64,000 bases of DNA from Verrucomicrobiales bacterium. Lineage in GTDB: Bacteria; Verrucomicrobiota; Verrucomicrobiia; Limisphaerales; UBA11320. Below are positions 14,333-37,152 of the stretch, in pieces (position 1 is the first letter of the stretch; each line of letters opens with the position of its first letter). The position numbers and the translations under genes are program-made. The DNA lies in the NCBI GenBank assembly GCA_016793885.1, contig JAEUHE010000103.1:124001-188000 (forward strand). Reading direction: 5' to 3'. The notes beneath the pieces are model-generated. The model saw only the letters and a program-made list of their open reading frames with translations. It ran no database searches and was not told where the DNA came from.

Positions 14333-14349
14333 GTGCTTTCCCGTCTTCT

Positions 14350-14383
14350 GTTTAAAAACAAAAGCACCTCACTTAGGGGGTGC
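14350..14383 (-). terminator. Intra-operon terminator or attenuator hairpin before the secretin gene
   Basis: On the minus strand GCACC....GGTGC forms a stem that contains the TAA stop of the Amuc_1099-like gene in its loop and is followed at once by TTTTGTTTTT. This has the form of an intrinsic terminator, with a short stem, placed inside the operon about 20 bp before the secretin start. Confidence 0.5.
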
Positions 14384-15224: not shown

Positions 15225-15232
15225 GTGGAATA

Positions 15233-16180: not shown

Positions 16181-16185
16181 ATCAA

Positions 16186-18609: not shown

Positions 18610-19575
18610 CTAAACCTTAGAACGAAAATATTTAATCGTTTGCTTGAGCCCTTCAGCGAGACCCACCTTGGGTTCCCACTTGAGAAGCGTGCGAGCCAAC
18701 CGAATATCCGGCTTTCGCTGCTTCGGGTCATCCTGAGGGAGAGGGCGATGAACAATCCGACTGCTCGACCGGGTAGCCCGGATGGTGGCCTCGGCAAACT
18801 GCAACATGGTCATCTCGGTAGGATTCCCTATGTTCACGGGGCCGGGTGCCGATCCCATCATCAATCGATAGATACCCTCGATCAGGTCGGAACAGTAGCA
18901 AAAGCTCCGGGTTTGACTGCCATCGCCAAACACAGTGATCGGCTTGTTTTTAAGGGCCTGGCTAATGAAGGCGGGCACCACCCGGCCATCGCGCAGTCGC
19001 ATTCGAGGACCATAGGTGTTAAAGATGCGGACGATGCGAGTCTCCAAGCGGTGCTGCTTTCGATAGGCGGTCACCAAAGCCTCGGCAAATCGCTTGGCCT
19101 CATCATAGCACCCGCGCGGACCAATGGGGTTCACATTGCCCCAGTAGGTCTCGGGTTGGGGATGCACCAAAGGGTCCCCATAGACCTCGGAGGTGGAAGC
19201 CAGTAAAAATCGAGCCCCTTTCTCCTTTGCCAGGCCAAGTGCCTTGTGGGTCCCAAGCGAGCCAACCTTAAGGGTTTGGATGGGTAGCTCAAGATAGTCA
19301 ATCGGGCTGGCCGGAGAGGCGAAGTGCCAAAGATAATCCACGGGGCCGGCCAGATAGAGGAACTCCGTGACGTCCTGCTCGATGAAGTGAAAATTACTGT
19401 TCCCCGCCAAGTGAGCGATATTGTCCACCGACCCGGTCACCAGGTTGTCGATGGCAACCACGCGATGGCCGCGGTCCAACAGATAGTCTACGAGATGCGA
19501 ACCAAGAAATCCCGCACCTCCGGTAACGACCGAGGTCAACTTCGTCTGACGCGCCGAACGGTTTGATGTTGCCAT
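18610..19575 (-). CDS. UDP-glucuronate decarboxylase-type NAD-dependent sugar epimerase
   Basis: A 321-residue extended short-chain dehydrogenase. The start at 19575 ([20 protein letters not shown]) places the Rossmann motif [11 protein letters not shown] near the N terminus; the longer open frame would overlap the sugar-transferase gene. The catalytic YDEAKR (YxxxK) lies in [14 protein letters not shown], and the segment [18 protein letters not shown] is the hallmark of UDP-xylose synthases (UXS), which oxidise and decarboxylate UDP-glucuronate to UDP-xylose. A UDP-xylose or related pentose donor would suit the surrounding polymer genes. A UDP-glucuronate source is not obvious in the window, because the dehydrogenase upstream looks more like a GDP-mannose enzyme. 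Last gene of the operon, directly before its terminator. Confidence 0.8.
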
Positions 19576-19616
19576 GCAATTGTTTTCGGCAGGCGCGGGG
19601 GTTCCTTGAGCAACGA

Positions 19617-21005
19617 CTACTTCGCGCCGGTCCCCCGAAGCACCACCGGGATGGTCATAAAGAGGATCTTCAGATCGAGCCAGATAGACCAGTTGTCGAT
19701 ATACTCCAGGTCCAATCTGACCCACTCTCGGAAGTTCGTCACATTGTTGCGGCCCTTGATCTGCCACAAGCAAGTGAGGCCAGGCTTCACACTCAGCCGT
19801 CGGCGATGAGCCAAATCATCGAAACGCCGCACTTCGTCGATCGGCAGTGGCCGCGGCCCCACCAAGCTCATCTCACCCCTCAGGACATTGTAAAGCTGGG
19901 GAAGCTCGTCGATGCTGAACTTTCGCAGCCACCGGCCGACGGGGGTGACCCGAGGATCATGGCTCACTTTGAAGACTGGACCATCCATCTCATTGAAAGC
20001 GGCCAACTCATGCTTACGCTGCTCCGCGTCGGTGACCATCGATCTAAACTTATACATCGAGAAAGGCTGTCCGTTGAGCCCACAACGAAGCTGACGGAAG
20101 AAGACCGGGCCCTTCGAGGTCATCCGAATCAGCAGGGCAACCACCAGAAAAAGAGGCGAAAGAAGGATCAAAGCCAGACCTGCGGAGCAGGTGTCCATAC
20201 CCACCTTGATTAGCCGAGGCCAGGAGTCATCCGGGGCCGATCGAAACACGAGCACCGGGCGTCCCCGAAAGTCATCGAGGGTGGTTTGCGAGATTTGAGG
20301 CTTGAAGAAATCAGCTAGCAGCCAAACTTCAATACCCTCCAACTCACAGGCTTGGATCGCCGCCTCGATATCACCAAAGTAAGTGTGTTGGGCGGCAAGG
20401 ATCACCCCGTTGGGCACTTTCTCATGGAGCAGCTCAACGAGCTTCGCAACACCTCCCTCTTTAAGGTCGGTTTGGGCGACGATCTCAAGTCCATCAAACT
20501 TGGTCGTGCTGATGTCCGATCTCAGGTTCGCGATATCCTCAGAGGTACCCACCAGGATAAAGCGACGTTTGAACTGTGCTTGGCCGTAACGGCTCCGGAT
20601 GATAAAGCGACTAATCTCCTCGCTCGCAACCATCAGGCCGAAACTCACAAATCCGTAGAGAAACAACACCACGCGGGGAAGCACGGTCTTGAAGGCCCAC
20701 AAGGCCAAAATCAGCCCCAACGTAATGTACACACAGCCCTTGGCCATGGTCAGATACACGTCTTTTCGCGGCCCTGTCACCGGGCGCTGGTAGAAGCCGA
20801 TCGATTCGAAGATCAACGGCGCACCCGGGATGATGATGAGTAGAAGCCAAACAAATCTATCGAAGGTCTCGATAGATCGGTCGTCGAAGAAAATCGGATG
20901 CCAGGGCTGCCACAGCAAATGGGTAAGCCACAGGGCAAACCCAAAGAGCAGAGCGTCCTTCCACTGATGCACCTGAGTGCGAAACTGTTGATTACCGCGG
21001 AGCAT
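19617..21005 (-). CDS. Polyprenyl-phosphate sugar-1-phosphate transferase (exopolysaccharide priming enzyme)
   Basis: A 462-residue enzyme that starts exopolysaccharide repeat units by placing a sugar phosphate on undecaprenyl phosphate. The N-terminal part has several membrane helices and a CoA-binding-like fold ([19 protein letters not shown]). After a further helix ([20 protein letters not shown]) comes the catalytic bacterial sugar-transferase domain with [20 protein letters not shown], the conserved [20 protein letters not shown] and [13 protein letters not shown]. This is the WcaJ/EpsL type with a complete domain set. It lies 52 bp after the exosortase gene and 41 bp before the epimerase gene, in the same operon. 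The sugar it transfers cannot be read from sequence. Confidence 0.9.
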
Positions 21006-21057: not shown

Positions 21058-22872
21058 TCACCTCACGCTCTCCTGAAAAACAGGCCCAGCATCCCGCTGA
21101 ACAAGGTCTCCAGACTGAGAATCAGACACACCTGCCAGAGGCCTGCCCTGAACTTCCTGAAAGAGCGGTACCGACTCTGAAACTAGGTTCTTGAGCCGTT
21201 CGAAGGTGACCTGCTCAAGCCCAGGCGGGCACTCCGCAAAATAGGTGACATAGGCCCAACGTTGCAATAGTCCTTGCGTCAAAAGGTCCCGAGCCATCCA
21301 CCATTGCCGATCCAAATGATCCGCCGTCAACTGGTCCTGGGAGACAAACCAATAGAGGTAGATTCCACGAACCCGATCCTTGGATCCATCCGCTTGTTGG
21401 CGCTCCTTGCTCAAATCTAGTCGCATCACAGGCAGTTCGTAACGGGTAGGCCGGTCAATCACCAGGTGAGTTGCCTGAGACCTGTCAATCTTCCACCCCT
21501 GAGCCACCAAACAGATTTGAGGCTTGTGAATGCTGCTTCGATCGCTCCCCATCAGCACCACGGACGTCGAGACATACATCCCATCTGCCGACTGATACAG
21601 CCGCTGCCCGTAGGTCGTGTCTTTGGGCAGCAGATCCAAAACCATCTGCGCCACCGGCATCGGACGGCTGTCAAAGGACAAAACCTTTTCCGGCAGGTAG
21701 ACGCTGTTGGTTCCAATCGGGTTTCCCTTCACATCCAAGGAGGGCACGCTCACCACTTTAAGCCCCGGACGTCCCATGCGCTGATTATTGCGCAATTTGT
21801 CAATAAAGACCCCTGTAGCCGCCACCGCCAGCCACACGGAGACGAGTGCGAAGGCCCCTTGCCGGCCAAAGGAGGACCGGACGGGGATCGGCTCGGGCAC
21901 CGGAGGGGGCGGGGCCACAGGAGCGGATGCGCCAGGCAATTCCTTCTCCTGGAGGAGCTTAACCAAAAGCACCAAACCACCAATCGCCGGCACATAGGGA
22001 AGCAAACTGAGCCAACTGCTGTCGTGAACGTACTTTCCAGCCAGAGGTCCAAACGCTTCGGACGCCACCACGATGGCTACCAGGCGGATGGCATTACCCA
22101 ACACTGCCAGGGGAAACGCCGACAAAAACGTGACCAAACGCCGCCATGGCGCCCGGAAAAAGACGAACCCTCCGATAAGCGAAATTGCCACCGTGGCCGT
22201 GAGGCTCTTGATGCCGCTGCACGCCGCAGCGATGTCGTACTGGTACCTGCCTTGAGGGTCAAACAGCTGAGTCCCATCACTTAAGACATTGATACCTAGG
22301 ATAGTGCGACACGTAAACGCAGTGATCTGCGTCGCATACAAACGGAGCGGAAGGGTAATTCGCTCCGTTTCCGTGGCTAAGGGAACGCAGAAGACGAAGA
22401 GGCAGAAAGGGAAGAACGTGGCCAAGAGCCAACGCCAGCCCCAGACCAGACCCGTGATGCCGTAGAGCCCAATGAAGAATCCGACGATCGAGACCCGGGA
22501 CTGCTGAACCACGTAACCCACCACGTGAATGGCCAACCCTGCCAAAACCAAGAGAAGCGCCGGCCACCACCTAGACTTTCTCACGGCGATCAGCTGCTCG
22601 CGCTTCCAATAGGCCAAAGCCAACACGATCGCTGGCATATAAAGCCCCAGTTCGTCACCCTCCGAAGTCGTGAACACGTAGTGCATCCAACCGAACAAGG
22701 ACGTCTCCTTCACATATCCTTGAGTGGAATTGCCCAATAAATGGAACAAAACAACCCACCCCGCGAAGAGGAGCAGGAACAGGAGCTTATCGGGTAGCGC
22801 TTGGGAAAAGCGCTTTAACTCAACCGGGATTTTTTGCAAATCCTCTGCCAAACTTTTCGGTTCTTCAGACAT
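21058..22872 (-). CDS. Exosortase with fused C-terminal EpsI domain
   Basis: A 604-residue integral membrane protease-transpeptidase. The first ~310 residues carry about eight hydrophobic helices and the exosortase triad: C218 in AAACSGIKSL, R263 in LGNAIRLVAIV and H283 in YVHDSSW. After a Pro-rich linker (about 318-335) and one more helix comes an EpsI-type domain with SSIHKPQICLVAQGW, the motif found in EpsI proteins next to exosortases. Exosortases recognise PEP-CTERM tails and are thought to cut and attach such proteins at the cell surface; a candidate substrate is encoded at 46783-47394. Being in the middle of an exopolysaccharide operon is the usual setting. All three catalytic residues are present, so it should be active. 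Confidence 0.92.
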   Translation of the reverse strand: MSEEPKSLAEDLQKIPVELKRFSQALPDKLLFLLLFAGWVVLFHLLGNSTQGYVKETSLFGWMHYVFTTSEGDELGLYMPAIVLALAYWKREQLIAVRKSRWWPALLLVLAGLAIHVVGYVVQQSRVSIVGFFIGLYGITGLVWGWRWLLATFFPFCLFVFCVPLATETERITLPLRLYATQITAFTCRTILGINVLSDGTQLFDPQGRYQYDIAAACSGIKSLTATVAISLIGGFVFFRAPWRRLVTFLSAFPLAVLGNAIRLVAIVVASEAFGPLAGKYVHDSSWLSLLPYVPAIGGLVLLVKLLQEKELPGASAPVAPPPPVPEPIPVRSSFGRQGAFALVSVWLAVAATGVFIDKLRNNQRMGRPGLKVVSVPSLDVKGNPIGTNSVYLPEKVLSFDSRPMPVAQMVLDLLPKDTTYGQRLYQSADGMYVSTSVVLMGSDRSSIHKPQICLVAQGWKIDRSQATHLVIDRPTRYELPVMRLDLSKERQQADGSKDRVRGIYLYWFVSQDQLTADHLDRQWWMARDLLTQGLLQRWAYVTYFAECPPGLEQVTFERLKNLVSESVPLFQEVQGRPLAGVSDSQSGDLVQRDAGPVFQESVR

Positions 22873-22921: not shown

Positions 22922-24139
22922 TCAAAGAGAGGTAGCCAAAGTCCGATGATACGCAATCAGAAGCTGTTCCACCGATTTTTCCCAATTGAGTTCGGTTCGA
23001 AACCGCTCCAACCCTGCTGCCGCCATCCGATCCCGACTGGCTCCATCATCCAACACGCCGGCGATGGCTTCCGCTAATCTAATCGGCGAGTTTTCGCTGA
23101 CATAAACCGCCGCCTCACCCGCCGAGAACCTACCCTCCTTCAGATCAAAAAGCACTTGAGCCTTTCCAAAGGCCATGTACTCCAGGACTTTGTTCATCGT
23201 GCAATGATCATTGTAGGGATTAATGGGATCACAAGAGACACCCAAATCGATGGTCCTCAACGCCGAAAACAAGAACTCGTTGGTCACTCGTCCCGGCAGG
23301 TCGACATGCTGCTGTAACCCCAGGCGATCACGCAGGGTGACCAACTTAGCATGTTCCGGGCCCGTTCCCATTAAAAGAAAATGGATATCGGTCCGCCCCA
23401 TCACCCGAATCAGGTGATCGGCCGCCTCGAGGAGGTACTGCAGCCCATCCGCATCCCCCATCACTCCGACGTATCCAACCAAAAACGTCTTTCCCTTCCG
23501 CAGGCCGGGATCCGGGGTGGCTTGATGAACGGCTATCTTCGGAGCAGTTCGAACGATAAAAACCTCATCAGCGCCTTTGCCACCACGATCCAGCGCGATC
23601 CCGCGAACGGATTGATTCGTAGCCAGCACGGTGTCGGCGCAGGCGTAAGTCAAACGCTCGGCCATGCGAACCGCCCAATAGAGCAAACCGCGACGTTGAA
23701 ACTTGGCTTCGAACATCTCCGGCCAGGCATCATGAACATCGTAGATCACTTTCACCCCAAAGAGGAGTCGGAACGGCCATGCAACCAAGAAGAGCAAATC
23801 GGGCGGATTGCAGAGATGAATGAGCTTAAAACGGTGGCGCCACCAAGCCTTGCAGGTCAGGCGAAGCTCTCCCAGCAACGCCGAAGCATACTCCCCGATA
23901 AAACCCAGAAGTCCACCCGCTTCATCGCTAATCCAATGCCGATAGATCTGAATGCCGTCGAGAACCTCTTCCGCCTTCACGTAACCGCGCATCTTCGGGC
24001 AGATGACGACCACCTGGTAACCCGCGTCTCGAAGGGCGCAGGACTCCTGCCATACCCGGCGATCCAAAGGCACCGGCAGGTTCTCCACGATAATCAGAAC
24101 GGTCTCCCGCTTCTGCGGCTGGTGAGCTTGAGAATCCAT
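22922..24139 (-). CDS. Glycosyltransferase family 4 (WcaI/WbuB-like)
   Basis: A 405-residue GT-B fold retaining glycosyltransferase. The N-terminal acceptor domain opens with ETVLIIVENLPVPLDRRVWQE, a start typical of this subfamily; the C-terminal donor domain contains VGYVGVMGDADGLQYLLEA, HFLLMGTGPE and an E-x7-E-like region NKVLEYMAFGKAQVLFDL. It should add one sugar to the lipid-linked polymer intermediate on the cytosolic side. It is 22 bp after the dehydrogenase gene and 49 bp before the exosortase gene. It is the only transferase of this type in the operon, so the other glycosyltransferases for a complex polymer, the flippase and the polymerase must be elsewhere. Confidence 0.88.
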   Translation of the reverse strand: MDSQAHQPQKRETVLIIVENLPVPLDRRVWQESCALRDAGYQVVVICPKMRGYVKAEEVLDGIQIYRHWISDEAGGLLGFIGEYASALLGELRLTCKAWWRHRFKLIHLCNPPDLLFLVAWPFRLLFGVKVIYDVHDAWPEMFEAKFQRRGLLYWAVRMAERLTYACADTVLATNQSVRGIALDRGGKGADEVFIVRTAPKIAVHQATPDPGLRKGKTFLVGYVGVMGDADGLQYLLEAADHLIRVMGRTDIHFLLMGTGPEHAKLVTLRDRLGLQQHVDLPGRVTNEFLFSALRTIDLGVSCDPINPYNDHCTMNKVLEYMAFGKAQVLFDLKEGRFSAGEAAVYVSENSPIRLAEAIAGVLDDGASRDRMAAAGLERFRTELNWEKSVEQLLIAYHRTLATSL

Positions 24140-24161: not shown

Positions 24162-25463
24162 TCACCAACAAAATCCCTGATACGGCACATCGAGAGCCCG
24201 CAGCTCCTTCCAGCCGTTCACGTCGAGAATCGAGTGTTTAGCCGTCAGATGCGGCTTCAGCTCGTCCAAGGTGGCACACTTCTGCGCAGCCACCACAAAT
24301 CCACCGGAACCCAGCGCGGCAGCCAAATCCGAACGCAGTAACGAAGCCAGATGAGGCATCCGGGTATCGATGACTCGCTTGTTGCTGCCAACCAGGGCCG
24401 CCAGGTTTAGGGCCGGATCATAGATGCGCACCTGATACCCGCGTCCCAAAAGCGTCTGCGCCACCTCCACCATCGAGCTTTCGCGCAAATCATCCGTGTT
24501 TGATTTAAAGGACAAACCCAAAATCACAACCTCGGACGCCCCCGATTCCATGATCAGCGTGAGCAGGCTCTGCAGGTGCCGTTCGTTGCTGGGAAGCAAG
24601 CTCTCCAGCAAAGGAAGCGAGACGCCTTCCAAACGGCCGCATTGGGTCAGCGCTCGGACGTCCTTCGGAAGGCAGGACCCGCCAAACGGGTTACCCGGTT
24701 TCATGTAGTAGGGGGACAGGTTCAGCTTAGTGTCTCGGCAGAGGAGTTCCATGACCGCACGGGCATCGATGTGAAGCTGCTTGCCCAAGCGGCCGATTTC
24801 ATTCGCAAAGGTGATCTTCGTAGCATGGAACGCATTGCAGGCGTACTTGATCATTTCCGCCGTGGGCCAGTTCACCACTGCCGCCTCGGGTCCAAACAGC
24901 GATTTCATCAAGTCCTCAGGCGGTCGGGCTCCCGTGCGTGAGCCGACGACGGCTAAGGAGGGATGCTCGAAATCAGAAACAGCGGTGCTCTCGCGCAAGA
25001 ACTCGGGATAATAAAAAATCTGCAGCATCCCGGACTGCTCCAAATCGCCCAGAATCTCGTCCACCAAGGCCTGGGTGCTGCCCGGAAGCATGGTGCTCCG
25101 AAGCACCAGGGTGTGCGGCTTGCTTAGCTTCCGAAGCACCGCTCCCATTTCTGCGAGAACTCCGCGAACGAAGCTAAGGTCAAGGGACCCCGACAACGCG
25201 GACGGTGTCCCGACACACACAATCGACGCCTCAGTGGCCAAGAGGGCGTCAGAGCAGCTGGTGGTTGCCCGAAGCAGCCCGGCCGTCCGCGCCGCCTTCA
25301 GAAGCTCAGGCAGCCCGGGCTCGATAATCGGCGCCACGCCTGCGTTCAAGGCCTCCACTTTGGCCGAACTCACGTCGACTCCCACAATGCTATGCCCTTG
25401 GCCGGCCAAACAGCCCGCCGTCACGGCACCCACATATCCAAGGCCAAAAATGCTGATCTTCAT
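24162..25463 (-). CDS. UDP-glucose/GDP-mannose 6-dehydrogenase family, closest to GDP-mannose dehydrogenase (AlgD type)
   Basis: A 433-residue NAD-dependent sugar-nucleotide dehydrogenase that would oxidise C6 twice to give the uronic acid. The ATG at 25463 places the Rossmann motif ISIFGLGYVGAVTAG at the N terminus and overlaps the preceding stop by 4 bp (ATGA). The catalytic cysteine is C264 in NPFGGSCLPKD. The stretch LSPYYMKPGNPFGG just before it resembles AlgD of Pseudomonas (active Cys268) more than UDP-glucose dehydrogenases, so GDP-mannuronate is the likelier product. Together with a heparinase/alginate-lyase-type gene directly upstream this suggests a uronic-acid-containing polymer. 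The substrate choice between GDP-mannose and UDP-glucose remains an inference. Confidence 0.85.
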   Translation of the reverse strand: MKISIFGLGYVGAVTAGCLAGQGHSIVGVDVSSAKVEALNAGVAPIIEPGLPELLKAARTAGLLRATTSCSDALLATEASIVCVGTPSALSGSLDLSFVRGVLAEMGAVLRKLSKPHTLVLRSTMLPGSTQALVDEILGDLEQSGMLQIFYYPEFLRESTAVSDFEHPSLAVVGSRTGARPPEDLMKSLFGPEAAVVNWPTAEMIKYACNAFHATKITFANEIGRLGKQLHIDARAVMELLCRDTKLNLSPYYMKPGNPFGGSCLPKDVRALTQCGRLEGVSLPLLESLLPSNERHLQSLLTLIMESGASEVVILGLSFKSNTDDLRESSMVEVAQTLLGRGYQVRIYDPALNLAALVGSNKRVIDTRMPHLASLLRSDLAAALGSGGFVVAAQKCATLDELKPHLTAKHSILDVNGWKELRALDVPYQGFCW

Positions 25464-27415
25464 GAAGAGATGGAAGCTAGAAAAGTAGTGGTAAAAACAC
25501 AAGAATTGTCCCCTGCGGGCGGGGCGGTCAGCAAAAGAAAAGGAGCCCGTTCCGTTTTCCGAAACGCCTGAGAAACAGTGCCGGGACCGGAGACAACCGA
25601 GCTTGAACCAGAGTTCAGGTCCCCCAGCTCCACTAGCTCAACGCTTTGCCACCCTGAACCAAGCACCACACGAACCTCCCGATCCTGGCGCCGAAGGATA
25701 AACTCACGATCGCTTTCCCGGCGCACGGTGCACCCAGGTGCAAACTGCCATCGAACGGAAAAGGCGCAGCTGCCGCCGTCCTTTTGAACACACGAATCCG
25801 AGACGCACCAACCCGATCCGTCCGGCTGACTGGAGATCTGGCGCCTCATTTGCCAACCCGGGATTTCAAATACACCTTCAATGCTGCCCTCCGACTTCGC
25901 CCCCCACGCCGGCGGCTGATGGTGGCTTTGCCAAAGGAAGGGACCGAGTCTCCGAGGAAACTCAGGAACACCAATGGGATGTGGGCCGTTATGGGCATCG
26001 CGTGAAGCCAGCCAGGCCCGCAATTTCGGGTCGGCATAATAGGCTCCTGTGCCTGGATCGACCACAAACGCCACCCCCTTAAGCCAGATCGAGAGATGCA
26101 GCGCATCCAAGTGTCCATGAGCCGCGGTGGAAAGATAGCCCAGGGGCGACAGATCCCACCGCAACCACCAAAAACCCGAGGCCTGAATCCCGATCCCGGC
26201 ATCCGGATAAACCCACCAATCGCCCACCTTCCGAGTGTGCGGCGGCTGTGCTCCGCGTCCCAATGGAACCCCAAATGAAGGCGGCTCCCCCAGCCAAAAA
26301 CCCAAAGAGCGTCCCATCCTCGTCTGCTCCATCCAGCCCGCCCACTCCGGCACAACACTCGAATCTCGAGCGAACAACGGGCTCACGTAGGCGCTGTCGG
26401 AATCCCCATAATCCCAGGGTTCCTCACGGACCTGAACCTCCCAGAAGAACCGCGCGGCACCGGTCAAACGTCTCTCAACTTCAGGAGAAATCGTTCGGCC
26501 AAAAGCCTTCAACGCCAGTCGGGCCTGCCAACAAAACTCAAAGGAAAAAAGCTGATAGTTGAGGGCCTGCTCGCGATTGCCGCCGTCAGCGCCGAACTGA
26601 GCGAGCACCTCGCGCTCCCAGATCCGCTGGAGCCGGTCGATGGAGGTCGACACCTCGGCAAGCACCGGCCAACGAACCAATGCCAAAATCAAGCCCACCA
26701 ACTCGCCCAACAAATGATTGTTGGCTGAGGAGCCGAAGGACTTGTAGCGCCACGCATAGGAAACATGAGGCACCAAGACCTGCGCGCGCAGCTGATGCAG
26801 CCGCTCACGAACACGGGTCGAACTTTGATCCAAAAGCGCGTCGATCCACGTGAACTGGATCAAGCGCATACCCACCTCCAGCGCGCTGGTCCAGTTCCAG
26901 CCCACTAAGGGGGGGTTCTTTCGGAGCCAGTCCTCCAACCAATCCAGACACTTCATCGCGGCCCGGTCGTCCCTCAGCAGATACCCAGCCTGTGCCAACC
27001 GCAGGAGCTGATACCATCGGCTCAACTCCCAGATCAATTTGACATCAGCTCCGTTGGGAAGAGCTCGATGGTTCAGCCCAAAAGCTGAAGCCGTGGTGGT
27101 CAAGTCCTGCTGCACCAGGTAATCCCGATGCCAGCGGGGGGGATCGTCCACCTGCAGGGCCAGGTGGCCGAATGCACGCCAGCGACCGGCCAGGATTTCC
27201 CGAGCGTCTTGTTCAACCGCCGTCCGCAATTCCTCCGGAGCTTCCGTCGGAGACCGGAGCACGGGGAACCCGGACGGGCTGCCGAAATCTAAAGGCGGCA
27301 GAGGCGATCGACCCATACGGTCGGTCCGCTGCAGCCACTTCTTGCGCGCGTGCGCCCACATCTCCTCCGGGCTCATCGCCCGAAGCCGATGCCAGTACCA
27401 CGAGAGGTCCTTCAC
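25460..27415 (-). CDS. Heparinase II/III family (alginate/uronan lyase-like) protein
   Basis: The GTG at 27415 overlaps the previous stop as GTGA and gives 651 residues starting VKDLSWYWHRLRAMSPEEM, the common start of heparinase II/III-like proteins in exopolysaccharide clusters. An alpha-helical toroid domain (about residues 30-360) includes SFGSSANNHLLGELVGL and GGNREQALNYQLFSFEF; a beta-sheet domain begins near 400 with HGHLDALHLSIWLKG followed by VDPGTGAYYADPKLR. These contain the His and Tyr positions expected for a beta-eliminating polysaccharide lyase. No signal peptide is visible, which is usual for operon members of this family. It may trim or release the polymer during assembly. 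Confidence 0.82.
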   Translation of the reverse strand: MKDLSWYWHRLRAMSPEEMWAHARKKWLQRTDRMGRSPLPPLDFGSPSGFPVLRSPTEAPEELRTAVEQDAREILAGRWRAFGHLALQVDDPPRWHRDYLVQQDLTTTASAFGLNHRALPNGADVKLIWELSRWYQLLRLAQAGYLLRDDRAAMKCLDWLEDWLRKNPPLVGWNWTSALEVGMRLIQFTWIDALLDQSSTRVRERLHQLRAQVLVPHVSYAWRYKSFGSSANNHLLGELVGLILALVRWPVLAEVSTSIDRLQRIWEREVLAQFGADGGNREQALNYQLFSFEFCWQARLALKAFGRTISPEVERRLTGAARFFWEVQVREEPWDYGDSDSAYVSPLFARDSSVVPEWAGWMEQTRMGRSLGFWLGEPPSFGVPLGRGAQPPHTRKVGDWWVYPDAGIGIQASGFWWLRWDLSPLGYLSTAAHGHLDALHLSIWLKGVAFVVDPGTGAYYADPKLRAWLASRDAHNGPHPIGVPEFPRRLGPFLWQSHHQPPAWGAKSEGSIEGVFEIPGWQMRRQISSQPDGSGWCVSDSCVQKDGGSCAFSVRWQFAPGCTVRRESDREFILRRQDREVRVVLGSGWQSVELVELGDLNSGSSSVVSGPGTVSQAFRKTERAPFLLLTAPPAGDNSCVFTTTFLASISS

Positions 27416-29604
27416 TGGCCGTCCCTCACCTCGATGGATCGGCCCTGCTGAATCGATTCCAACGCCGCAAATGTCAGGCACATGCTCTGCCGCGAGAGCG
27501 CGTACGGCAGGGGATGGCTGCGCTCACCTCGCAAAAACGAGGCCCATTCGGCCATCTGCTCGGCATGCCCCTTGGATAGATAGGAGAAACTCTTCTCCTT
27601 GCGCCCCCGATGGAGCACAAGCTTCTGGTAGTTCTGAAGCCCGGCGACAAACCCCGCTCCGAACACGGTCAACTCCTCCTTGGGCCAGGAGGTGTCGCCT
27701 TCGGCCGAGTAAATCAACTGTCCCGACGATCCATCCGCAAATTCAACCTGCGCCGTGATCGTGTCCGGAAAGGGCAATCGGCCGGTAGCCGGCCAGGTCG
27801 TCTGAGCACTGACGCGCACCGGGGCTGAATCGAACAGGAAGCAGAAGTAATCAAAGAAGTGACAGGCCTCGCCCAGCACCCGACCACCGCTCTCTGCGTA
27901 ATTGGAATACCAGTGGGTAGGATCCAACTTCCCTGCCATCACGCGAAAGCTCGCGCTCTTCGGTCCAGCCGCCCCCGCGATGCATTTTTTGAGCTCCAGA
28001 CTGGCGGGTGCAAAACGACGGTTGAAACCGACCTGCACCGATCCAGCAGTGCTGCCCATCACCGCATCTATCTGAGCCAGTTCAGCTCGGGTCAAACACA
28101 GGGGCTTCTCCACAAACACATGACGTCCCTGATTCAAGGCGGATGTCACCAGCGGTGCGTGCAAGTGATGGCGAGTCGCAATCAGCACCGCCGCATTCTC
28201 TCCACCCTTGCCTTGAAGCACTTCCTCGTGACTCGTGCCCGCGCTCGCGAAGGCAAATTTCGTTTTGACATGATTGGCGCTAAGCGCGGTCTGGTTAACA
28301 ACCGTTCCAAAGGGGACCTTGCCCTGCAGGTGAGGCAGCAGCATGGTGCGGGCAAAGTTTCCAGCGCCAATCACATCCAGTCGGGTCGCTGGACGCGAAA
28401 GCCGAATCTCTGCGGCTGCGCCGCGCGATAGGCTAGCTATCTTCGGCTCCAAGGCCGGGGCGTTGGCTGACGCGTCGATCCCCGGCGTGGCGTACTCCAT
28501 CACCACCCCGATATCCTTGGCCCCTTCGGCCATGAGGTCGCGGTAGACCTCCAGGCATCCTTGAAACGGAACTCGCCGAGTGGTGATCGAGCCAAGCTTC
28601 AAATCACCGGTCTTCATCAAGTGCAACACGGATTCGAAGTTGCGCCCCTCGGTCCACCGCACGTAACCGATAGGATAGTCCACTCCTGCCCATTCGTACG
28701 CCGGATCGTAACGACCTGGGCCGTAGGAACGCGAATAACGGACGTCCAGCTCCTTCTCGTAGAAAACTTTCCAGGCGCAGTCGGCTCGCGTGTTTCCGAT
28801 GATGACGATCCGACCGCGATCTCGCAGCGCATCGGCCGCCTGCTCGAGCGGGGCATTGTTGTTGCCTGCCGTGCACAGAACTACTGAGTCTACGCCGTAG
28901 CCCTCCGTCCAGGCACGCACTTCATCCGCAAGATTCTGCTGACCAACGATGACTACCCGTTCCGCGCCGACGCCCAAGGCGAAGGGTTTTCGGGCGGCCG
29001 CCAAGTCGACTGCCATCACACGACACCCGCTGGCTGCCAGAATGTTGGTCACCAACAATCCAACCAAGCCCTGGCCCATCACCAAAACTCGATCCCCCAG
29101 CTGAGGCTCCAACTGCCGCACCCCTTGCAGCGCGATGGCGGCAATGGTGGTGTAGGCCGCCTGCCAGCCTTCCACGCCTTCCGGCACCTTGGCCATCAGC
29201 AGGTCGGGCACAGCGACCCATTCGGCATGAAATGCACACTCGGCTCCGCTGCAGCTTACCAAGTCACCGACGCGAAAACGCGTGTTGCCCGGGTCAATGG
29301 ATTCAATGATCCCCGCAGCGCTGTACCCCATCGGCGTCGGTGTCTCGAGCCGATTTCGGACCTTCTCCAGGGCGGCCTTCCACCCCAGGTTCCTGGCCGT
29401 GTCCAGCACCTTCCGAACTTGATCAGGACGCGCCTTCGCCTTCTGAAGCAGGTTCATCTTGGCCTGCTCTACCTTCATCTTCTCCGTACCGATGCTGATC
29501 ACGGAGTGGGTCACCCGGACTACCGCGCCACCCGGAGGTGCTGTGGGAACAGGCACTTCCTGGAGCTCGAGCCGGCCATCTTGATATTGGGCAATCTGCT
29601 TCAC
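27412..29604 (-). CDS. Bi-domain oxidoreductase: zinc-type alcohol dehydrogenase fused to Gfo/Idh/MocA
   Basis: A 730-residue protein with two Rossmann enzymes in one chain. Residues 1 to about 370 are a medium-chain dehydrogenase (VGDLVSCSGAECAFHAEW; nucleotide site GDRVLVMGQGLVGLLVTN). From about residue 403 a Gfo/Idh/MocA domain begins (RLDVIGAGNFARTMLLPHL) and has the typical FVEKPLCLTRAEL. NCBI calls such chains bi-domain-containing oxidoreductase; they are common next to heparinase II/III genes in polysaccharide loci, and the reaction has not been settled as far as I know. The start is GTG at 29604 (GTGAAGCAGATT). The stop overlaps the heparinase start by 4 bp, so the two are probably made in fixed ratio. 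Confidence 0.85.
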   Translation of the reverse strand: MKQIAQYQDGRLELQEVPVPTAPPGGAVVRVTHSVISIGTEKMKVEQAKMNLLQKAKARPDQVRKVLDTARNLGWKAALEKVRNRLETPTPMGYSAAGIIESIDPGNTRFRVGDLVSCSGAECAFHAEWVAVPDLLMAKVPEGVEGWQAAYTTIAAIALQGVRQLEPQLGDRVLVMGQGLVGLLVTNILAASGCRVMAVDLAAARKPFALGVGAERVVIVGQQNLADEVRAWTEGYGVDSVVLCTAGNNNAPLEQAADALRDRGRIVIIGNTRADCAWKVFYEKELDVRYSRSYGPGRYDPAYEWAGVDYPIGYVRWTEGRNFESVLHLMKTGDLKLGSITTRRVPFQGCLEVYRDLMAEGAKDIGVVMEYATPGIDASANAPALEPKIASLSRGAAAEIRLSRPATRLDVIGAGNFARTMLLPHLQGKVPFGTVVNQTALSANHVKTKFAFASAGTSHEEVLQGKGGENAAVLIATRHHLHAPLVTSALNQGRHVFVEKPLCLTRAELAQIDAVMGSTAGSVQVGFNRRFAPASLELKKCIAGAAGPKSASFRVMAGKLDPTHWYSNYAESGGRVLGEACHFFDYFCFLFDSAPVRVSAQTTWPATGRLPFPDTITAQVEFADGSSGQLIYSAEGDTSWPKEELTVFGAGFVAGLQNYQKLVLHRGRKEKSFSYLSKGHAEQMAEWASFLRGERSHPLPYALSRQSMCLTFAALESIQQGRSIEVRDGQ

Positions 29605-29647: not shown

Positions 29648-31087
29648 TCAGCCAACTGCCTCGCCTGGCGCGCCAAGCTTGGAGGCTTGAGCAGTGATCC
29701 GACTGATTAACCACCGATGCTTGCCACGAGCCGTTTTTTCCGTCTCGCGAACCTCCCGAATCGTGAGCTGGAAGTCCTCGCCGAGCTTCCGTCGAATGCC
29801 GGACTCGATGCGGCCGAGCTTTTCTCGATTGAAGTTCGGACCTGGAACGTAGCGAAACTCTGCCGAACCCGCCGCCTCCTGCACAAACTGCACGGCATAG
29901 AGGTCGTCGAATATCGCATCGTGCATGTTGAATGCGGTTAGGGAAATCCGCCGCCCCGTGGCGCTGATCAGGAATTCCTGCTCCCGGCCCGCGATCTCGG
30001 AAACCGCAGGCCAGGGAAACTCCAACCCGCCATCTCGCGACGGATCGGCCAGCCGCACGTAATCGCCTGTTCGATATCGGATCAACGGCATGGCCAGGTT
30101 GTGAAAGCTCGTTCCGATCACTTCGCAGAAGCCCTCGGCATCAGGAGCTCCAAACTCCACCAAACCGTAGGTCGGCCAAAAATAGAACAGATCCGATCGT
30201 CGGCCTTCCGCGGCCAGAACCGCTCGCTCGGAATGGCCATACCAGCGAAAAACCCGGCACCGAAACACGCGTTCGAGCAATCGTTTCTGCGGCAGGTTGA
30301 GTCGCTCCGAGCCAGCCAGCAGGCCCTTCAACGGCACTTCCCACTGCAGCCCGGCCTTTTCGAGAAACTCGGCGAGTTGAAGGGCCGCCGAGGGATACGC
30401 GTGGAGCAGGTCGGGGCGAAACCGCTTCACCTCGGCGAGATACTCCGGGAGTCTAGCCTCTGTCAGATGGTAGGATGACAGCATCAGCCAATCACGGGTC
30501 GCGTCATAGCTGGCGATCCTCCCTTGAGATTCGTCGCTCGTGACATGACCGCGAATCACCACCAATCGCGCGCCCGGAAAGTAGCCTCCGCGCGCCCACT
30601 GAGCCTCCAAAAATGCCTGCTCCTTCGGACGACTGACTCCGCGCTGCAAGTAGAATCCCACCGGAACTCCCGTCGATCCTCCCGTCGTGATGTACAGCCG
30701 TTCCTTCTTGGGCACGTGGCTGCACACCAATTCCTCGCGAGACTGCAACAAGTCCTGCTTTTCTAGAAAGGGGCAACCCTGAAGATCCTCAATCTCGCGA
30801 ACAAGCTCCGGTCGGAAGCCAGCCTGAGCAAATCTTCGTTGATACCCAGTCGAGTAGTTCCCCGCGTGAATCAGGACCTTCCGCAACTCTTTCAACTGAT
30901 AATCCCGGATCTGATCCACCGACCAGGATTCAACTTCGGCAGCCAGACGTTGAAACTCAGGAAAGCGGGCACCCTGCCTCCAACGGACCGGCAGACGACG
31001 GTAAGTCCCGCCGATCGCCCGTTTAAGGCCCTGGGGCATCCGCTCGTAAACCGCCAATAGCGGATAGAGTTTATCCTCTAAGCTCAT
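29648..31087 (-). CDS. CapK/PaaK-family adenylate-forming enzyme, operon copy
   Basis: A 479-residue CapK-type protein related to phenylacetate-CoA ligases. The ATP loop TTGGSTGVP is at residues 134-142, the second core motif is FRWYGHSERAVLA, and the hinge aspartate lies in PLIRYRTGDYVRL. The C-terminal lid ends ETEKTARGKHRWLIS with the conserved lysine region. In polysaccharide clusters such enzymes are thought to activate a carboxylate for attachment to, or modification of, a sugar. It overlaps the DUF362 gene by 4 bp (ATGA), and the same gene pair is repeated divergently at 32739-35493. That repeat pairing suggests CapK and DUF362 proteins act together. The substrate is unknown. Confidence 0.83.
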   Translation of the reverse strand: MSLEDKLYPLLAVYERMPQGLKRAIGGTYRRLPVRWRQGARFPEFQRLAAEVESWSVDQIRDYQLKELRKVLIHAGNYSTGYQRRFAQAGFRPELVREIEDLQGCPFLEKQDLLQSREELVCSHVPKKERLYITTGGSTGVPVGFYLQRGVSRPKEQAFLEAQWARGGYFPGARLVVIRGHVTSDESQGRIASYDATRDWLMLSSYHLTEARLPEYLAEVKRFRPDLLHAYPSAALQLAEFLEKAGLQWEVPLKGLLAGSERLNLPQKRLLERVFRCRVFRWYGHSERAVLAAEGRRSDLFYFWPTYGLVEFGAPDAEGFCEVIGTSFHNLAMPLIRYRTGDYVRLADPSRDGGLEFPWPAVSEIAGREQEFLISATGRRISLTAFNMHDAIFDDLYAVQFVQEAAGSAEFRYVPGPNFNREKLGRIESGIRRKLGEDFQLTIREVRETEKTARGKHRWLISRITAQASKLGAPGEAVG

Positions 31088-32469
31088 GCGGTCACAGCAC
31101 GCCGGTCACTCTCAATGGCACCGACCCAACCGAAATGTGGTTTGAACTCGAATACATCGCTCATTCCCCCCAGCTTGCCCTGCCAAGCCGGATGGTTGGA
31201 CACCACTTCCATTTCCTCCGGCTTGAAGTCGACAAAGCTGGCCTGCTTCAATTCGAAGCATCCCCGCAGCATCCGGAGTTTCCTCCAGTCGAATCCCATC
31301 ACGGTTGCAGCGGTACAATCCACGGCCGTGGGATGCGTGCCCGCCACGACCACCCCGATAGGCCGTGCATCCGGGGCCATGGGACCGTTGCCCTCTCCAC
31401 CGATGATTCCATCCACCACCGCCAGATAGCGCAAGGGAGCCTTTCGCAGACTTCCGTCGCCGCCGTAGCCAAATAAACACTTGTTCAGGTCCACCACCAT
31501 CCGCCAGCAAGTATCGTTGCCATGCCAGTTGCCGGAGCGAACCACTTTCTGAGTATCTCCAAAATACAGCCTGCCCAGCTTCTTCAAGGGCACAAACAAA
31601 CGGGATAAGAGCGTGTTTCCCTTCAGCACTCGCTTGGCCGTTCCCATCCAAGAATGCTCCAGCTTGGCCTTGGTGGTCGCATGAGGAAATTGATCTCCAC
31701 CCCGGTCAGGGGTGCCCTCGGTATGATGCGGAAGCCAATTTTTATTGGCATTAATTCCCACCAAGTTCTTGAGGGCACAGGTAATTCCCACTTTCTTGTG
31801 CGTCTTGAGCTTGGGTAGGTTGATTAGCACGTCCGCATCCATGGGCGTGCGGCACAGCAGATACTCGTGCGTGGTGCCCTGATGCTTGGTGTTCGTCTCG
31901 TTCATGTCATAGGAGGCCCCATAGAGCTGGCCACAGCCACGAAATCCGACAAATTCGCTCGCCGCATTCAGTCGCACATGGGTGCTGCCCAAAGGATCAC
32001 CGGGTAGCGAGGTCTTGGAGACGGTAACTCCATCCACGGCATGCCACTCCTCCGGACGCAGATCCAACAGGGCAATGTGGAGGGTCGAGAAATCCCGCTT
32101 CAACCGCGCCACCATCTCATCCAGACCGCAATAGGCCCTCAAAGTCGCAAAGGAACTGTCGGTCTGAGGCGCGTCACAGATCACAATCGAACCAGCCCCG
32201 CTCAAGCGTGGCGCCACCCATCGGATCACCGCTTCGATGACGGACGGATGCGTGACCACATAATCCCATCGATCCGGCCCCGGATGCCGCTCGTCGTGCT
32301 CCTTAACCCAGTTCGGCTTGAGAACCACCCGGTCTCCCGTTCGGATGAAGTCCGCCGGCAGCCGCAGGGCGTCCAGCGCTTGGTGCACCAAGCCCGCCAC
32401 CGCCTGAGTATCGCGGTAATTGTCAGGGCCGCGATAACAAGCCACTCTTGAGTTGGTCACATTCATCAT
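31084..32469 (-). CDS. DUF362 domain protein, first gene of the exopolysaccharide operon
   Basis: A 461-residue DUF362 protein. Conserved family features seen are VVLKPNWVKEH near residue 50, LINLPKLKTHKKVGITCALKNLVG in the middle, a tract GIN.NK..LPHH.EGTP..GGD, NWHGNDTCWRMVVDLN, and GIIGGEGNGPMAPD. No signal peptide, membrane helix or ferredoxin-type cysteine cluster is seen, so it looks cytosolic. DUF362 has no settled function; the invariant Lys/Asn and His residues suggest an enzyme. It is clearly related to the protein at 32739-34091 and, as there, followed directly by a CapK gene. The start is the first of two adjacent ATG codons; the promoter should lie in the 269 bp divergent spacer. 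Confidence 0.85.
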   Translation of the reverse strand: MMNVTNSRVACYRGPDNYRDTQAVAGLVHQALDALRLPADFIRTGDRVVLKPNWVKEHDERHPGPDRWDYVVTHPSVIEAVIRWVAPRLSGAGSIVICDAPQTDSSFATLRAYCGLDEMVARLKRDFSTLHIALLDLRPEEWHAVDGVTVSKTSLPGDPLGSTHVRLNAASEFVGFRGCGQLYGASYDMNETNTKHQGTTHEYLLCRTPMDADVLINLPKLKTHKKVGITCALKNLVGINANKNWLPHHTEGTPDRGGDQFPHATTKAKLEHSWMGTAKRVLKGNTLLSRLFVPLKKLGRLYFGDTQKVVRSGNWHGNDTCWRMVVDLNKCLFGYGGDGSLRKAPLRYLAVVDGIIGGEGNGPMAPDARPIGVVVAGTHPTAVDCTAATVMGFDWRKLRMLRGCFELKQASFVDFKPEEMEVVSNHPAWQGKLGGMSDVFEFKPHFGWVGAIESDRRAVTA

Positions 32470-32738
32470 TTCATCTTAATTCCGAACCACTTGCAGTCTA
32501 GCCTAGACGCGACAAGCATGTCATGAAACTTCCATCATGCCCTTCGCAGGGCAAGCCCATTCGTCGCAAACACCCCTCAAGGAGGCGTCCCAACCACCAC
32601 AACAACTAAAGAAGTATCGGCGTTCAAAAAAGATTCTGTCTCATTTTTGATCATTCTCCCGCAAAGATCTTGCAGAACTGCCGATTCAAATCTAGGTAGG
32701 ACGGAACTTAGACTCTGCCGACAGAGACAATCCATGAC
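32470..32738. promoter_or_regulatory. Divergent promoter spacer between two DUF362-CapK modules
   Basis: A 269 bp spacer separates two divergently transcribed DUF362 genes, so promoters for both directions must be here. A small hairpin GCCCT-TCGC-AGGGC lies near 32538-32553. The right half is more A+T-rich than the genes around it. I cannot name specific -35/-10 boxes or an operator. Confidence 0.5.
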
Positions 32739-34091
32739 ATGACGCGTTGTTTTACTCAGAGTGCCGGTCGCCTCAAGGCGCTCGTGCACGAGAACCTAAA
32801 GCGGGATCTTGGACACCTGCAGCCCAAGCGGATCGTGCTGAAGCCGAACTGGGTGCTCCATGAAACCGACCCCCATTTCCCTATCCAAGCTCTGGTGACG
32901 GATGCCCGGGTCATCGAAGCCACGCTGGATGCTTGCCTTGACCTGTTTCCCCATGCGGAATCCATTCTGATCGGAGATTGTCCCCTCCAATCCGCCGACT
33001 GGCCGGCCATGTGTCGCCAAAATGGGCTGGACCAAGTGATCGCCCGGCTGTCCCGTACCACCGGAACCCAGGTCAAGTTCCGCGACCTGCGCAAGGAGGT
33101 GTTCCGCAAGGACGCAGGCGGGTTTATGATTCCCAGCGACGTGGAACACGGGGATCCCAAAGGCTACCTGGAGGTTCATCTGGGCGACCGCAGCCATCTG
33201 GAACCCATCTCGGATCAAGCACATCTCTTCGCCGTCAACGATTACACGTCCAGCGTCACCCGCAGCAATCACCGCAAAGGCGACCATCGCTATTTCGTCA
33301 GCCAGAGCATCTTGGAGTCCGATCTCTTCATCAATCTTCCCAAATGGAAATCCCACGCCAAGAGCGGGCTCACCTGCGCGCTGAAAAACTTGGTGGGGAT
33401 CAACGGGGACAAGGCCTACCTGCCCCACTTTCGTCGGGGAGCGCCCAAGTGGGGTGGTGACGAATACCGCGATGAAAGCCGCTGGCTCTACTGGGCTCAG
33501 ACCACTCTCCGCGAGAAGCTGCAGAAAAGAAGTCAGTTTGCTTTCAAGCTGCTCAAACCCGGATGGGAGCTCCTGAAACGGGCGCGCGGCATCGAGACCA
33601 AACTTAAGGATCGCAAGGCTCAGCCTAAGGAGTTTTATGTCGCGGGCGGGGCCTGGTACGGCAACCAGACCATCTGGCGGATGATCTACGACCTCAACCT
33701 CATCATCCACTGCGCCGATCGCGCCGGCGTCCTTCAGCGCTCCCCCCAACGAACCTATTACTGTGTGGTGGACGGCCTGGTCAGCGGCGAAGGAAATGGC
33801 CCGCTCGAACCCCTGCCCCGCGAGACGGACTGGCTGATCTTCGGTGACGACCCGTTCCAGATCGATTGTTCGTTGGCCTGGTTCATGGGTTTCGACCCGC
33901 GACTCATGCCGGTTCTCGAACAACGAAGCCAATACCTAGGACCCAACTGGGGCGATTTCGAACTAGGTCAGCTCGAAGTGCTCCTGGACGGAGTGCCGAC
34001 GCGCGTCCTGGAATCCGCTCTCAATCTGCAATTCGTACCTCCTCCGGGATGGCGACATCATATCGAACGTGAACGTCAACTGGCTCTTTAA
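32739..34091 (+). CDS. DUF362 domain protein, second copy
   Basis: A 450-residue DUF362 protein paralogous to the one at 31084-32469. Shared landmarks, in the same order, are RIVLKPNWVLHE, LFINLPKWKSHAKSGLTCALK, VGINGDKAYLPHFRRGAPK, WYGNQTIWRMIYDLN and VSGEGNGPLEP, followed by a D-C pair and MGFDPR. The N terminus is about 20 residues shorter than in the other copy; the ATG at 32739 is the only credible start. A Lys/Arg-rich insert (about residues 255-300) is not found in the first copy. It overlaps the following CapK gene by 23 bp. Function unknown, but the repeated DUF362-CapK pairing implies a joint reaction. Confidence 0.83.
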   Translation: MTRCFTQSAGRLKALVHENLKRDLGHLQPKRIVLKPNWVLHETDPHFPIQALVTDARVIEATLDACLDLFPHAESILIGDCPLQSADWPAMCRQNGLDQVIARLSRTTGTQVKFRDLRKEVFRKDAGGFMIPSDVEHGDPKGYLEVHLGDRSHLEPISDQAHLFAVNDYTSSVTRSNHRKGDHRYFVSQSILESDLFINLPKWKSHAKSGLTCALKNLVGINGDKAYLPHFRRGAPKWGGDEYRDESRWLYWAQTTLREKLQKRSQFAFKLLKPGWELLKRARGIETKLKDRKAQPKEFYVAGGAWYGNQTIWRMIYDLNLIIHCADRAGVLQRSPQRTYYCVVDGLVSGEGNGPLEPLPRETDWLIFGDDPFQIDCSLAWFMGFDPRLMPVLEQRSQYLGPNWGDFELGQLEVLLDGVPTRVLESALNLQFVPPPGWRHHIERERQLAL

Positions 34092-35493
34092 ACTTCCGGC
34101 GCCCGTGCGGCGCTCCATTTACTTTGGCCTTCAAACAGTCATCGGCTCCAAGGTGGCATCCACTTGGAGGGAGATGCAGTCTTGGGAGCGTCTCTCCCCC
34201 GAAGCACACGACGCCAAGGTCGAGCAGTCCCTGAGCCGAACTTTGGAAGGTGCCGTCCAACATTCCGAGTATTACCGACAGCTTGGCCTCGTTCGAAAGC
34301 CCGGGGAATCAGCAGCCCAGTTCCTCCAACGCTTTCCCATCCTCGACCGGGAGATCATCCGATCCGACTTCACTCGTATCGTCATCGACCCTCTCCGATC
34401 GGAGATCACCTCCCCTCAGTCCGTCAGTTCCAAACGGTATGACTGGTTGGTCGTGAAGACTGGCGGCACCACCGGCAACCCCACCACCATCGTCCATGAC
34501 GCCAGCGCTCGCGACTGGGGGCGCTCGACCCGACTGCTCGCCGCCAAGATGTGCGGCCATCCCTTGGGAGTGCGCTACTTCCGCCTGTGGGGATCGGAGC
34601 CCGACCTGCTCAAGGAGCAGGCTAGCCTGCAGCTGCGCGTGCTCTTCAACCTCGTGGGAGCCATGCCTCTCAACGCCTTTCGCGCCAAGGAATCCGATCT
34701 GCTGCGACATCATGCGACCCTCATGGCTCATCCTGAGATCGACAGCATGATGGCCTATGTCGACGCGGCGGCCGGCCTGGCGGAATTCATCGAAGAGCGC
34801 GGATTACCCCGTCCCAAACTCCGCACCATCATGGCCTGTGCAGGAACAGTGACTCCGGAGTGGCGAGCGCTGTTGCAGCGTGTGTTCCAAGCCGAGGTTT
34901 TCGACAAATATGGATCCCGTGATTGCTGCGACATGGCCTGTGAGTGTTCGCAGCACAACGGCCTGCACGTCTACTCCGCGAACTGCTTCATCGAGATCGT
35001 CGACGATAATCTGAAGCCCTGTCCGCCCGGAGTCACCGGCCGTATTCTGGTGACCTTGCTCAACAACCCTACCTTCCCGATGATCCGCTACTCCGTAGGT
35101 GACCTCGGGCAATGGGCACCGCCCGGACCCTGCGCCTGCGGCCTGGCTTGGCCACGGATTCAGAGCCTGCAGGGCCGACTCGATGACATGCTCACCACCG
35201 AGGATGGCACCCAGCTATCCTCCGTGTTTGTGAGACATTTTGTGGGAGTAAGCCTCAACCGGCAGATCATTCGCGAATGGCAGCTCGAGCAATCCGACGC
35301 GAAGAAATTCATCTTCCGCTACATTCCCACCCGGACCGAAGGGCTGGCCGAAAACCTGGAAAAACTGAAGAGCAGCTTCCTGTTGGCCTTCGGCAAGAGC
35401 GTCGATATCGAACTGGTGCAGGTGTCTGAGATCCCCCCCTCCAAGACCGGCAAAGTCCGCTGGATCATCAACACCTACAAAAAGCGTGGTTGA
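34069..35493 (+). CDS. CapK/PaaK-family adenylate-forming enzyme, second copy
   Basis: A 474-residue CapK-type enzyme that starts with GTG at 34069 inside the end of the DUF362 gene. It has the ATP loop KTGGTTGNPTT at residues 130-140, the second motif VFDKYGSRDCCDMACEC and the hinge PMIRYSVGDLGQW, and it ends in a lid with SEIPPSKTGKVRW that carries the catalytic lysine. Cysteines cluster in the middle (CCDMACEC and PCACG), which is not seen in the operon copy; they could bind a metal. Similarity to the operon CapK is limited to the core motifs, so the two may use different acids while working with related DUF362 partners. Confidence 0.82.
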   Translation: MNVNWLFKLPAPVRRSIYFGLQTVIGSKVASTWREMQSWERLSPEAHDAKVEQSLSRTLEGAVQHSEYYRQLGLVRKPGESAAQFLQRFPILDREIIRSDFTRIVIDPLRSEITSPQSVSSKRYDWLVVKTGGTTGNPTTIVHDASARDWGRSTRLLAAKMCGHPLGVRYFRLWGSEPDLLKEQASLQLRVLFNLVGAMPLNAFRAKESDLLRHHATLMAHPEIDSMMAYVDAAAGLAEFIEERGLPRPKLRTIMACAGTVTPEWRALLQRVFQAEVFDKYGSRDCCDMACECSQHNGLHVYSANCFIEIVDDNLKPCPPGVTGRILVTLLNNPTFPMIRYSVGDLGQWAPPGPCACGLAWPRIQSLQGRLDDMLTTEDGTQLSSVFVRHFVGVSLNRQIIREWQLEQSDAKKFIFRYIPTRTEGLAENLEKLKSSFLLAFGKSVDIELVQVSEIPPSKTGKVRWIINTYKKRG

Positions 35494-37053: not shown

Positions 37054-37152
37054 CTAGCAGCCTGTCGCGACGGTTCCCAAGAGATAACTCAGCACAAACG
37101 AGCCCCACAGCCGGACTCACGTCCGGTTTGGAAAGGCCCGACAGGCTGCTAG
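37054..37152. repeat. Inverted repeat between convergent genes
   Basis: Perfect 14 bp arms CTAGCAGCCTGTCG (37054-37067) and CGACAGGCTGCTAG (37139-37152) enclose 71 bases that contain a second hairpin CCGGAC-TCAC-GTCCGG (37111-37126). The right arm contains the TAG stop of the minus-strand radical SAM gene. It may serve as a two-way terminator or be a small repeat element; there is no T-run on either side. Confidence 0.7.

Follow-up and report, generated by a model that had tools for sequence, protein, structure and literature searches.

The window analysed here is a stretch of 64,000 nucleotides from a Verrucomicrobiales bacterium (assembly GCA_016793885.1, contig JAEUHE010000103.1, positions 124,001 to 188,000). 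It carries two gene pairs, each composed of a member of the DUF362 family and a CapK-type ligase. Our results describe DUF362 and CapK as a real and widespread pair, and structural models place both DUF362 proteins in the fold of the lactate racemase LarA. We propose, with a probability of about one half, that DUF362 is a LarA-like enzyme dependent on the nickel-pincer nucleotide (NPN), setting the stereochemistry of a (hydroxy)acid that CapK activates for decoration of an exopolysaccharide. The two pairs, as defined by open reading frame (ORF) calls, are arranged as follows.

29648..31087, minus strand: CapK1, PaaK-like (ANL superfamily) acid-activating ligase of 479 amino acids (ORF call, NCBIfam, PDB match)
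31084..32469, minus strand: DUF362-1, 461 amino acids, predicted LarA fold (ORF call, Pfam, model)
32470..32738, no strand: divergent spacer of 269 bp
32739..34091, plus strand: DUF362-2, 450 amino acids, predicted LarA fold, with conserved His206-Lys216-His230 (ORF call, Pfam, model)
34069..35493, plus strand: CapK2, PaaK-like ligase of 474 amino acids with a GTG start (ORF call, NCBIfam)

An earlier sequence-only reading of this DNA had described the same four genes, their overlaps (4 bp between CapK1 and DUF362-1, 23 bp between DUF362-2 and CapK2) and the 269-bp spacer, and the ORF coordinates agree with it. Its view that the DUF362 proteins are clear paralogues and the CapK proteins distant relatives is likewise borne out by identities of 32-33% and 22%, respectively. 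Both DUF362 proteins belong to the Pfam family DUF362 (PF04015; 108.5 bits for DUF362-1 and 89.7 bits for DUF362-2, curated cut-off 24), and they are the sole DUF362 genes found in the 8.7-Mb genome. The same reading had seen mirror-image modules around a promoter spacer, and this part did not hold. A scan of the spacer revealed no convincing promoter, terminator or repeat, and its single weak sigma-70-like site has 9/12 matches, where shuffles give 0.3. Moreover, the two DUF362 types occur together in 1 of 58 genomes of the same order (own genome included); none of the other 57 was found to hold both. The mirror layout is thus two divergent modules side by side in one genome. A recent mirror-image duplication is rejected because of the low identities between the copies, while each copy has its own orthologues at 60-79%.

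Within the same 58 genomes, DUF362-1 is present in 16 (15 others at 62-79% identity, own at 100%) and CapK1 at an identity of at least 60% in 16. Both are found in 15 genomes, DUF362-1 alone in one (G051), CapK1 alone in one (G042, an assembly that is 76% complete) and neither in 41, a co-occurrence with a Fisher p of 8e-12, uncorrected for phylogeny. The two genes lie within 300 bp in 10 of the 16 genomes, are 2.9 kb apart in G018 and are unlinked in G004, G017, G033 and G036. A protein with DUF362-2 as its best match, at 67-79% identity, is found in G029, G048 and G003, in the last as a DUF362 fragment located where a contig ends. Two pairs of more distantly related DUF362 and CapK genes were found in G016 and G041, and there CapK comes first.

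A wider scan of genome contigs yielded 362 relatives, and all loci counts given below refer to the best 80 of these, which are closest relatives, mainly of one phylum, so that the counts are not independent. Adjacency of the two genes elsewhere had been set as a test by the sequence-only reading, and it is far from rare. In 53/80 loci CapK comes after DUF362 on the same strand, less than 300 bp away, and it lies at most 3.5 kb downstream in 60/80; CapK within 300 bp before DUF362 was found in none of the 80. When loci with at least 1.4 kb of downstream sequence are considered, 46/68 have an adjacent CapK. The records that hold an adjacent pair bear the titles Verrucomicrobiota, Planctomycetota, Acidobacteria, Deltaproteobacteria, Lewinellaceae (Bacteroidota) and Eisenbacteria. 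Some loci have further genes between DUF362 and CapK, among them genes for methyltransferases, a GDSL hydrolase, a glycosyltransferase and an asparagine-synthase-like amidotransferase. The amidotransferase, which is glutamine-dependent, stands between the two genes in locus L081 and directly after DUF362 in L133, and methyltransferases are present in L081 and L101; these genes hint at amidated or methylated carboxylates.

The fold of DUF362 was addressed with AlphaFold2 models (pLDDT 89.7 for DUF362-1 and 82.6 for DUF362-2). All nine Foldseek matches of the DUF362-1 model at E <= 0.001 are LarA-fold entries. In VIA-align this model superposes on LarA with Z 15.6 (rmsd 3.2, 223 residues aligned), the first entry outside the fold scoring 6.4; the DUF362-2 model gives Z 15.9 to 4nar and 15.4 to LarA, followed by 7.4 for the first entry outside the fold. 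The models thus indicate that both proteins have the LarA lactate-racemase fold. This likeness to the LarA superfamily (Lar_N/DUF2088; Z about 15) has a counterpart in classification, as PMC11770544 lists DUF362 and DUF2088 in one Pfam clan, CL0471. DUF362 differs from the superfamily in its low identity to LarA (about 12% over the structural alignment of DUF362-1) and in its occurrence with an acid-activating ligase. We do not count it among the LarA members, because Pfam finds DUF362 alone in both proteins, with no match to the sequence families Lar_N (DUF2088) or LarA_C. A sequence search of the PDB with DUF362 gave no credible match.

Resemblance to LarA may extend to the register of a histidine and a lysine. 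In the sole stretch of DUF362 and LarA aligned by hhalign, His224 of DUF362-1 falls on LarA His174 and Lys234 on the NPN-tethering lysine (LarA residues in L. plantarum numbering; their roles, catalytic histidine and tether lysine, are taken from PMC12611868). With a broad alignment the match has an E of 8e-4, while CapK local comparisons used as negative control gave 0.2-0.5; a global hhalign comparison of DUF362 with LarA returned no sensible alignment. The codons concerned, the first two placed from gene coordinates, are the following.

31798..31800, minus strand: His224 codon of DUF362-1, aligned with the LarA catalytic His174
31768..31770, minus strand: Lys234 codon of DUF362-1, aligned with the LarA NPN-tethering lysine
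31726..31728, minus strand: His248 codon of DUF362-1, possible counterpart of the LarA nickel ligand His200, as suggested by spacing

His248 follows Lys234 by 14 residues, compared with 16 in LarA, a spacing along the sequence and not a residue-level superposition. Divergent DUF362 proteins share the invariant residues K51, N53, D99, K222, H224, K234 and G238. An iron-sulfur cluster in the subfamily of DUF362-1 and DUF362-2 was also considered and rejected, as two DUF362 alignments contain no invariant cysteine.

A trait shared with the LarA superfamily is linkage to larC, often together with larE and larB, whose products make NPN. Nine of the 80 loci, all with Verrucomicrobiota titles, have larC shortly upstream of DUF362-CapK. 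It is the next gene in seven of the nine, with one ORF in between in L097 and L103, and six have larE and larB as well as larC. In L092 each gene of the run larE-larB-larC-DUF362 shares a 4-bp overlap with the next, with NCBIfam scores above cut-off. LarA itself was found in none of the 80 loci. Ten Verrucomicrobiaceae-type genomes were tested for it (those of the nine larC loci and L095), and four have no detectable LarA (L088, L098, L109 and L113), all four with larC in the locus. Among 17 other genomes of the DUF362-CapK type, larC is present in 14, and the four without LarA (L126, L130, L132 and L137) all have it. Therefore larC is found in 8/8 genomes that hold this subfamily and lack detected LarA. 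Co-occurrence of DUF362-1 and larC within the order is uninformative, with larC in 53/58 genomes and Lar_N in 55/58. A true LarA homologue (Lar_N and LarA_C) is encoded in the window itself at 54178-55440 on the minus strand, 19 kb from the DUF362 genes.

The association was also observed in a sample of 392 Bacteroidota genomes, in which larC was counted above cut-off (G280, with a match below it, being counted negative). The gene larC is present in 27, DUF362 in 61 and both in 24, that is, DUF362 in 24/27 larC genomes versus 37/365 others (odds ratio 71, p 9e-19, uncorrected for phylogeny). Seven of the ten larC genomes without LarA have a DUF362. Six loci picked because larC and DUF362 lay near each other (L186-L191) all have larC, larE and larB beside a DUF362. 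In two of them, L189 and L190, from genomes without detected LarA, the order is DUF362-larC-larE-larB, and EpsG-like, glycosyltransferase and sugar-transferase genes are nearby; in the other four the lar genes stand beside other DUF362 types. In L186, L187 and L188 a short DUF362 (312-417 amino acids), with an N-terminus that appears Tat-like by eye, lies beside polyferredoxin-type genes and larC-larE-larB, possibly representing an exported, redox-linked branch. Four control genomes have larC and no Lar_N match (S. elongatus, C. glutamicum, M. jannaschii and H. volcanii), and DUF362 is present in two of them, H. volcanii and Synechococcus elongatus.

The partner protein is related to PaaK-type phenylacetate-CoA ligases. 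CapK1 has no Pfam match and CapK2 only an AMP-binding match below cut-off, and in NCBIfam both hit PaaK-type ligases with scores short of the equivalog cut-offs. Against the PaaK equivalog TIGR02155 (cut-off 646.3 bits) they score 53.2 and 38.2 bits and so fall far outside PaaK proper. Among solved phenylacetate-CoA ligases, CapK1 matches 4r1l with an E of 2e-17. The CapK profile matches 4r1l at 4.6e-43 and 6hdw at 3.7e-21, a 2-hydroxyisobutyryl-CoA synthetase being among the PaaK relatives matched. CapK is alike to these enzymes by profile and differs from them in its pairing with DUF362. A glycine-rich loop and the Y-G, R-Y-x-x-x-D, G-R and C-terminal G-K stretches are kept, which we take to be the ANL motifs. 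That an ANL-type partner acts on carboxylic acids counts in favour of the proposed pathway.

Because of the LarA fold and the larE/larB/larC linkage in relatives, DUF362 is more likely a cofactor-dependent enzyme preparing the acid than an anonymous partner of CapK. We propose that the two are consecutive enzymes of one exopolysaccharide-decoration pathway. DUF362 would be a LarA-fold enzyme outside the LarA family, carrying NPN made by LarB, LarE and LarC; the cofactor is probably tethered to Lys234, with His248 as a putative nickel ligand and His224 as a putative acid/base. By transient hydride transfer it would racemise or epimerise a carboxylic acid with a free C2 hydroxyl, either a small 2-hydroxy acid or a sugar acid. 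CapK would then adenylate the carboxylate of the wanted isomer and pass the activated acid on, as a CoA thioester or directly, and the acid would be attached to, or amidated within, a uronic-acid-containing repeat unit.

Several observations weigh against this proposal. With the DUF362-CapK subfamily alignment alone, the hhalign match to LarA is weak (E 0.07, probability 0.8%), and no counterpart of the second LarA catalytic histidine, His108, was identified in DUF362. The LarA-fold entry 4nar is labelled putative uronate isomerase, so the fold need not mean lactate-racemase chemistry. No larC is shown in 71/80 loci, and LarA is present elsewhere in the genome in 6/10 Verrucomicrobiaceae-type genomes. 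In the genome of the window, a search covering larC and larB located the two adjacent to each other on another contig. The gene larC was not found in 3/17 genomes of the DUF362-CapK type, all three of which have LarA and possibly incomplete assemblies, nor in G002 (80% complete). Among Bacteroidota, 3/10 larC-positive, LarA-negative genomes have no DUF362. The pattern His-x9-Lys-x-His is present in 28/30 Bacteroidota loci examined, the other two giving no motif match, and 20 of the 28 motif-bearing genomes, with a DUF362 of about 310 amino acids, have no larC. The motif is therefore a family trait that does not by itself imply NPN, and we discarded it as a criterion for NPN use. Possibly only some DUF362 branches depend on NPN, or the assignment may be wrong. 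The loci L157-L185 encode DUF362 proteins of about 310 amino acids with a Tat-like N-terminus, which keep the His-Lys-His pattern in genomes without larC.

A first alternative is a DUF362 that has the LarA fold without NPN, using another metal or the conserved lysine and histidine directly, with lar neighbours of regulatory or historical meaning. The motif kept in the 20 LarC-negative genomes, the uronate-isomerase label of 4nar and the loci without larC alongside all speak for such an enzyme. Against it stand the presence of larC or larE/B/C beside divergent DUF362 types in two phyla and the 8/8 occurrence of larC in subfamily genomes without detected LarA, and we hold it to be unlikely. The label of 4nar, which is the top match of DUF362-2, also bears on a second alternative, in which the pair acts on a sugar acid: DUF362 would epimerise a uronic or aldonic acid and CapK would activate the carboxylate of this acid, to be amidated or joined to an amino acid. 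In agreement with this, the surrounding cluster contains a heparinase-like gene and one for a nucleotide-uronate dehydrogenase, and L081 and L133 have their glutamine-dependent asparagine-synthase-like genes. In a pyranose uronate, however, C5 carries the ring oxygen, so that LarA-type hydride transfer would need the open chain, and no known uronate-acting ANL ligase is among the solved relatives of CapK; this alternative appears quite unlikely. Least probable, and by our estimate very improbable, is the transferase proposed by the sequence-only reading, which would transfer an acyl or aminoacyl group activated by CapK to the polymer with no racemisation: adjacency, co-occurrence and those loci in which a methyltransferase or GDSL-hydrolase gene separates the two suit it, but LarA does not belong to the acyltransferases, and such an activity would leave the linkage to lar genes unexplained.

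The NPN-dependent racemase or epimerase that we favour has a bearing on the wider question of NPN users. According to PMC11796402, larB, larE and larC occur without larA in about 15% of surveyed genomes, where the users of the cofactor are not known, and Haloferax volcanii is a named case without a known user in PMC8305020. DUF362 is a concrete candidate for part of this gap, with the right fold and the right gene neighbours. That the family, or a large part of it, is a second NPN-using family among non-LarA clients, wired in this branch to an acid-activating ligase so as to tailor the stereochemistry of an exopolysaccharide, we consider a little short of an even bet. If true, a large family so far uncharacterised would gain a function, and a nickel cofactor would take part in the synthesis of surface polysaccharides. 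Our literature search turned up no paper that connects DUF362 with NPN other than as an outgroup. The nearest named DUF362 family is the Npun_F2552 family (NF052623), of which neither protein is a member (75.9 bits for DUF362-1 and 44.6 bits for DUF362-2, cut-off 500).

The minus-strand module runs on into an exosortase-associated exopolysaccharide cluster, composed of the following genes.

27412..29604, minus strand: bi-domain oxidoreductase (zinc dehydrogenase and GFO/IDH/MocA), ZbdP-like
25460..27481, minus strand: heparinase II/III-like protein, HepP-like
24162..25502, minus strand: UDP-glucose/GDP-mannose dehydrogenase family, nucleotide uronic acid synthesis (Pfam)
22922..24139, minus strand: GT4-type glycosyltransferase (Pfam)
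21058..22872, minus strand: exosortase with a C-terminal EpsI-like domain (NCBIfam)
19617..21005, minus strand: exopolysaccharide polyprenyl glycosylphosphotransferase (NCBIfam)
18610..19773, minus strand: nucleotide-sugar epimerase/dehydratase (SDR; NCBIfam)

These Pfam and NCBIfam assignments support the surface-polymer context suggested by the sequence-only reading. Recurrent pairing and exopolysaccharide setting are thus the parts of that reading that stood, the mirror unit fell, and the LarA fold and lar linkage had been overlooked; its suggestion that DUF362 and CapK together attach an acyl or amino-acid group to a surface polymer is plausible but unproven. Of the 80 loci, 23 contain the oxidoreductase, 21 the nucleotide-sugar dehydrogenase and 15 the heparinase-like gene. 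The bi-domain oxidoreductase and heparinase-like pair that follows CapK here resembles, as judged by domains, that of the ZbdP-HepP operon of P. aeruginosa PA14 (PMC5732420); the available part of that account does not mention DUF362 or CapK in this connection.

Some further features of the window were recorded. Exosortase and EpsI-like domain form one ORF of 604 amino acids at 21058-22872 (minus strand), and they are two ORFs in the relatives L035 and L052. PilM-like and secretin genes at 11552-18069 (minus strand), downstream of the polysaccharide cluster, form a set resembling those of type IV pili or type II secretion. A radical SAM/SPASM protein at 37149-38318 (minus strand) is near NirJ1/AhbC (512 bits, cut-off 650), with no obvious haem d1 genes among its neighbours. 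At the edge of the window, positions 75-1154 (plus strand), there is another AMP-binding ORF, scoring 28.9 bits against a cut-off of 29.9.

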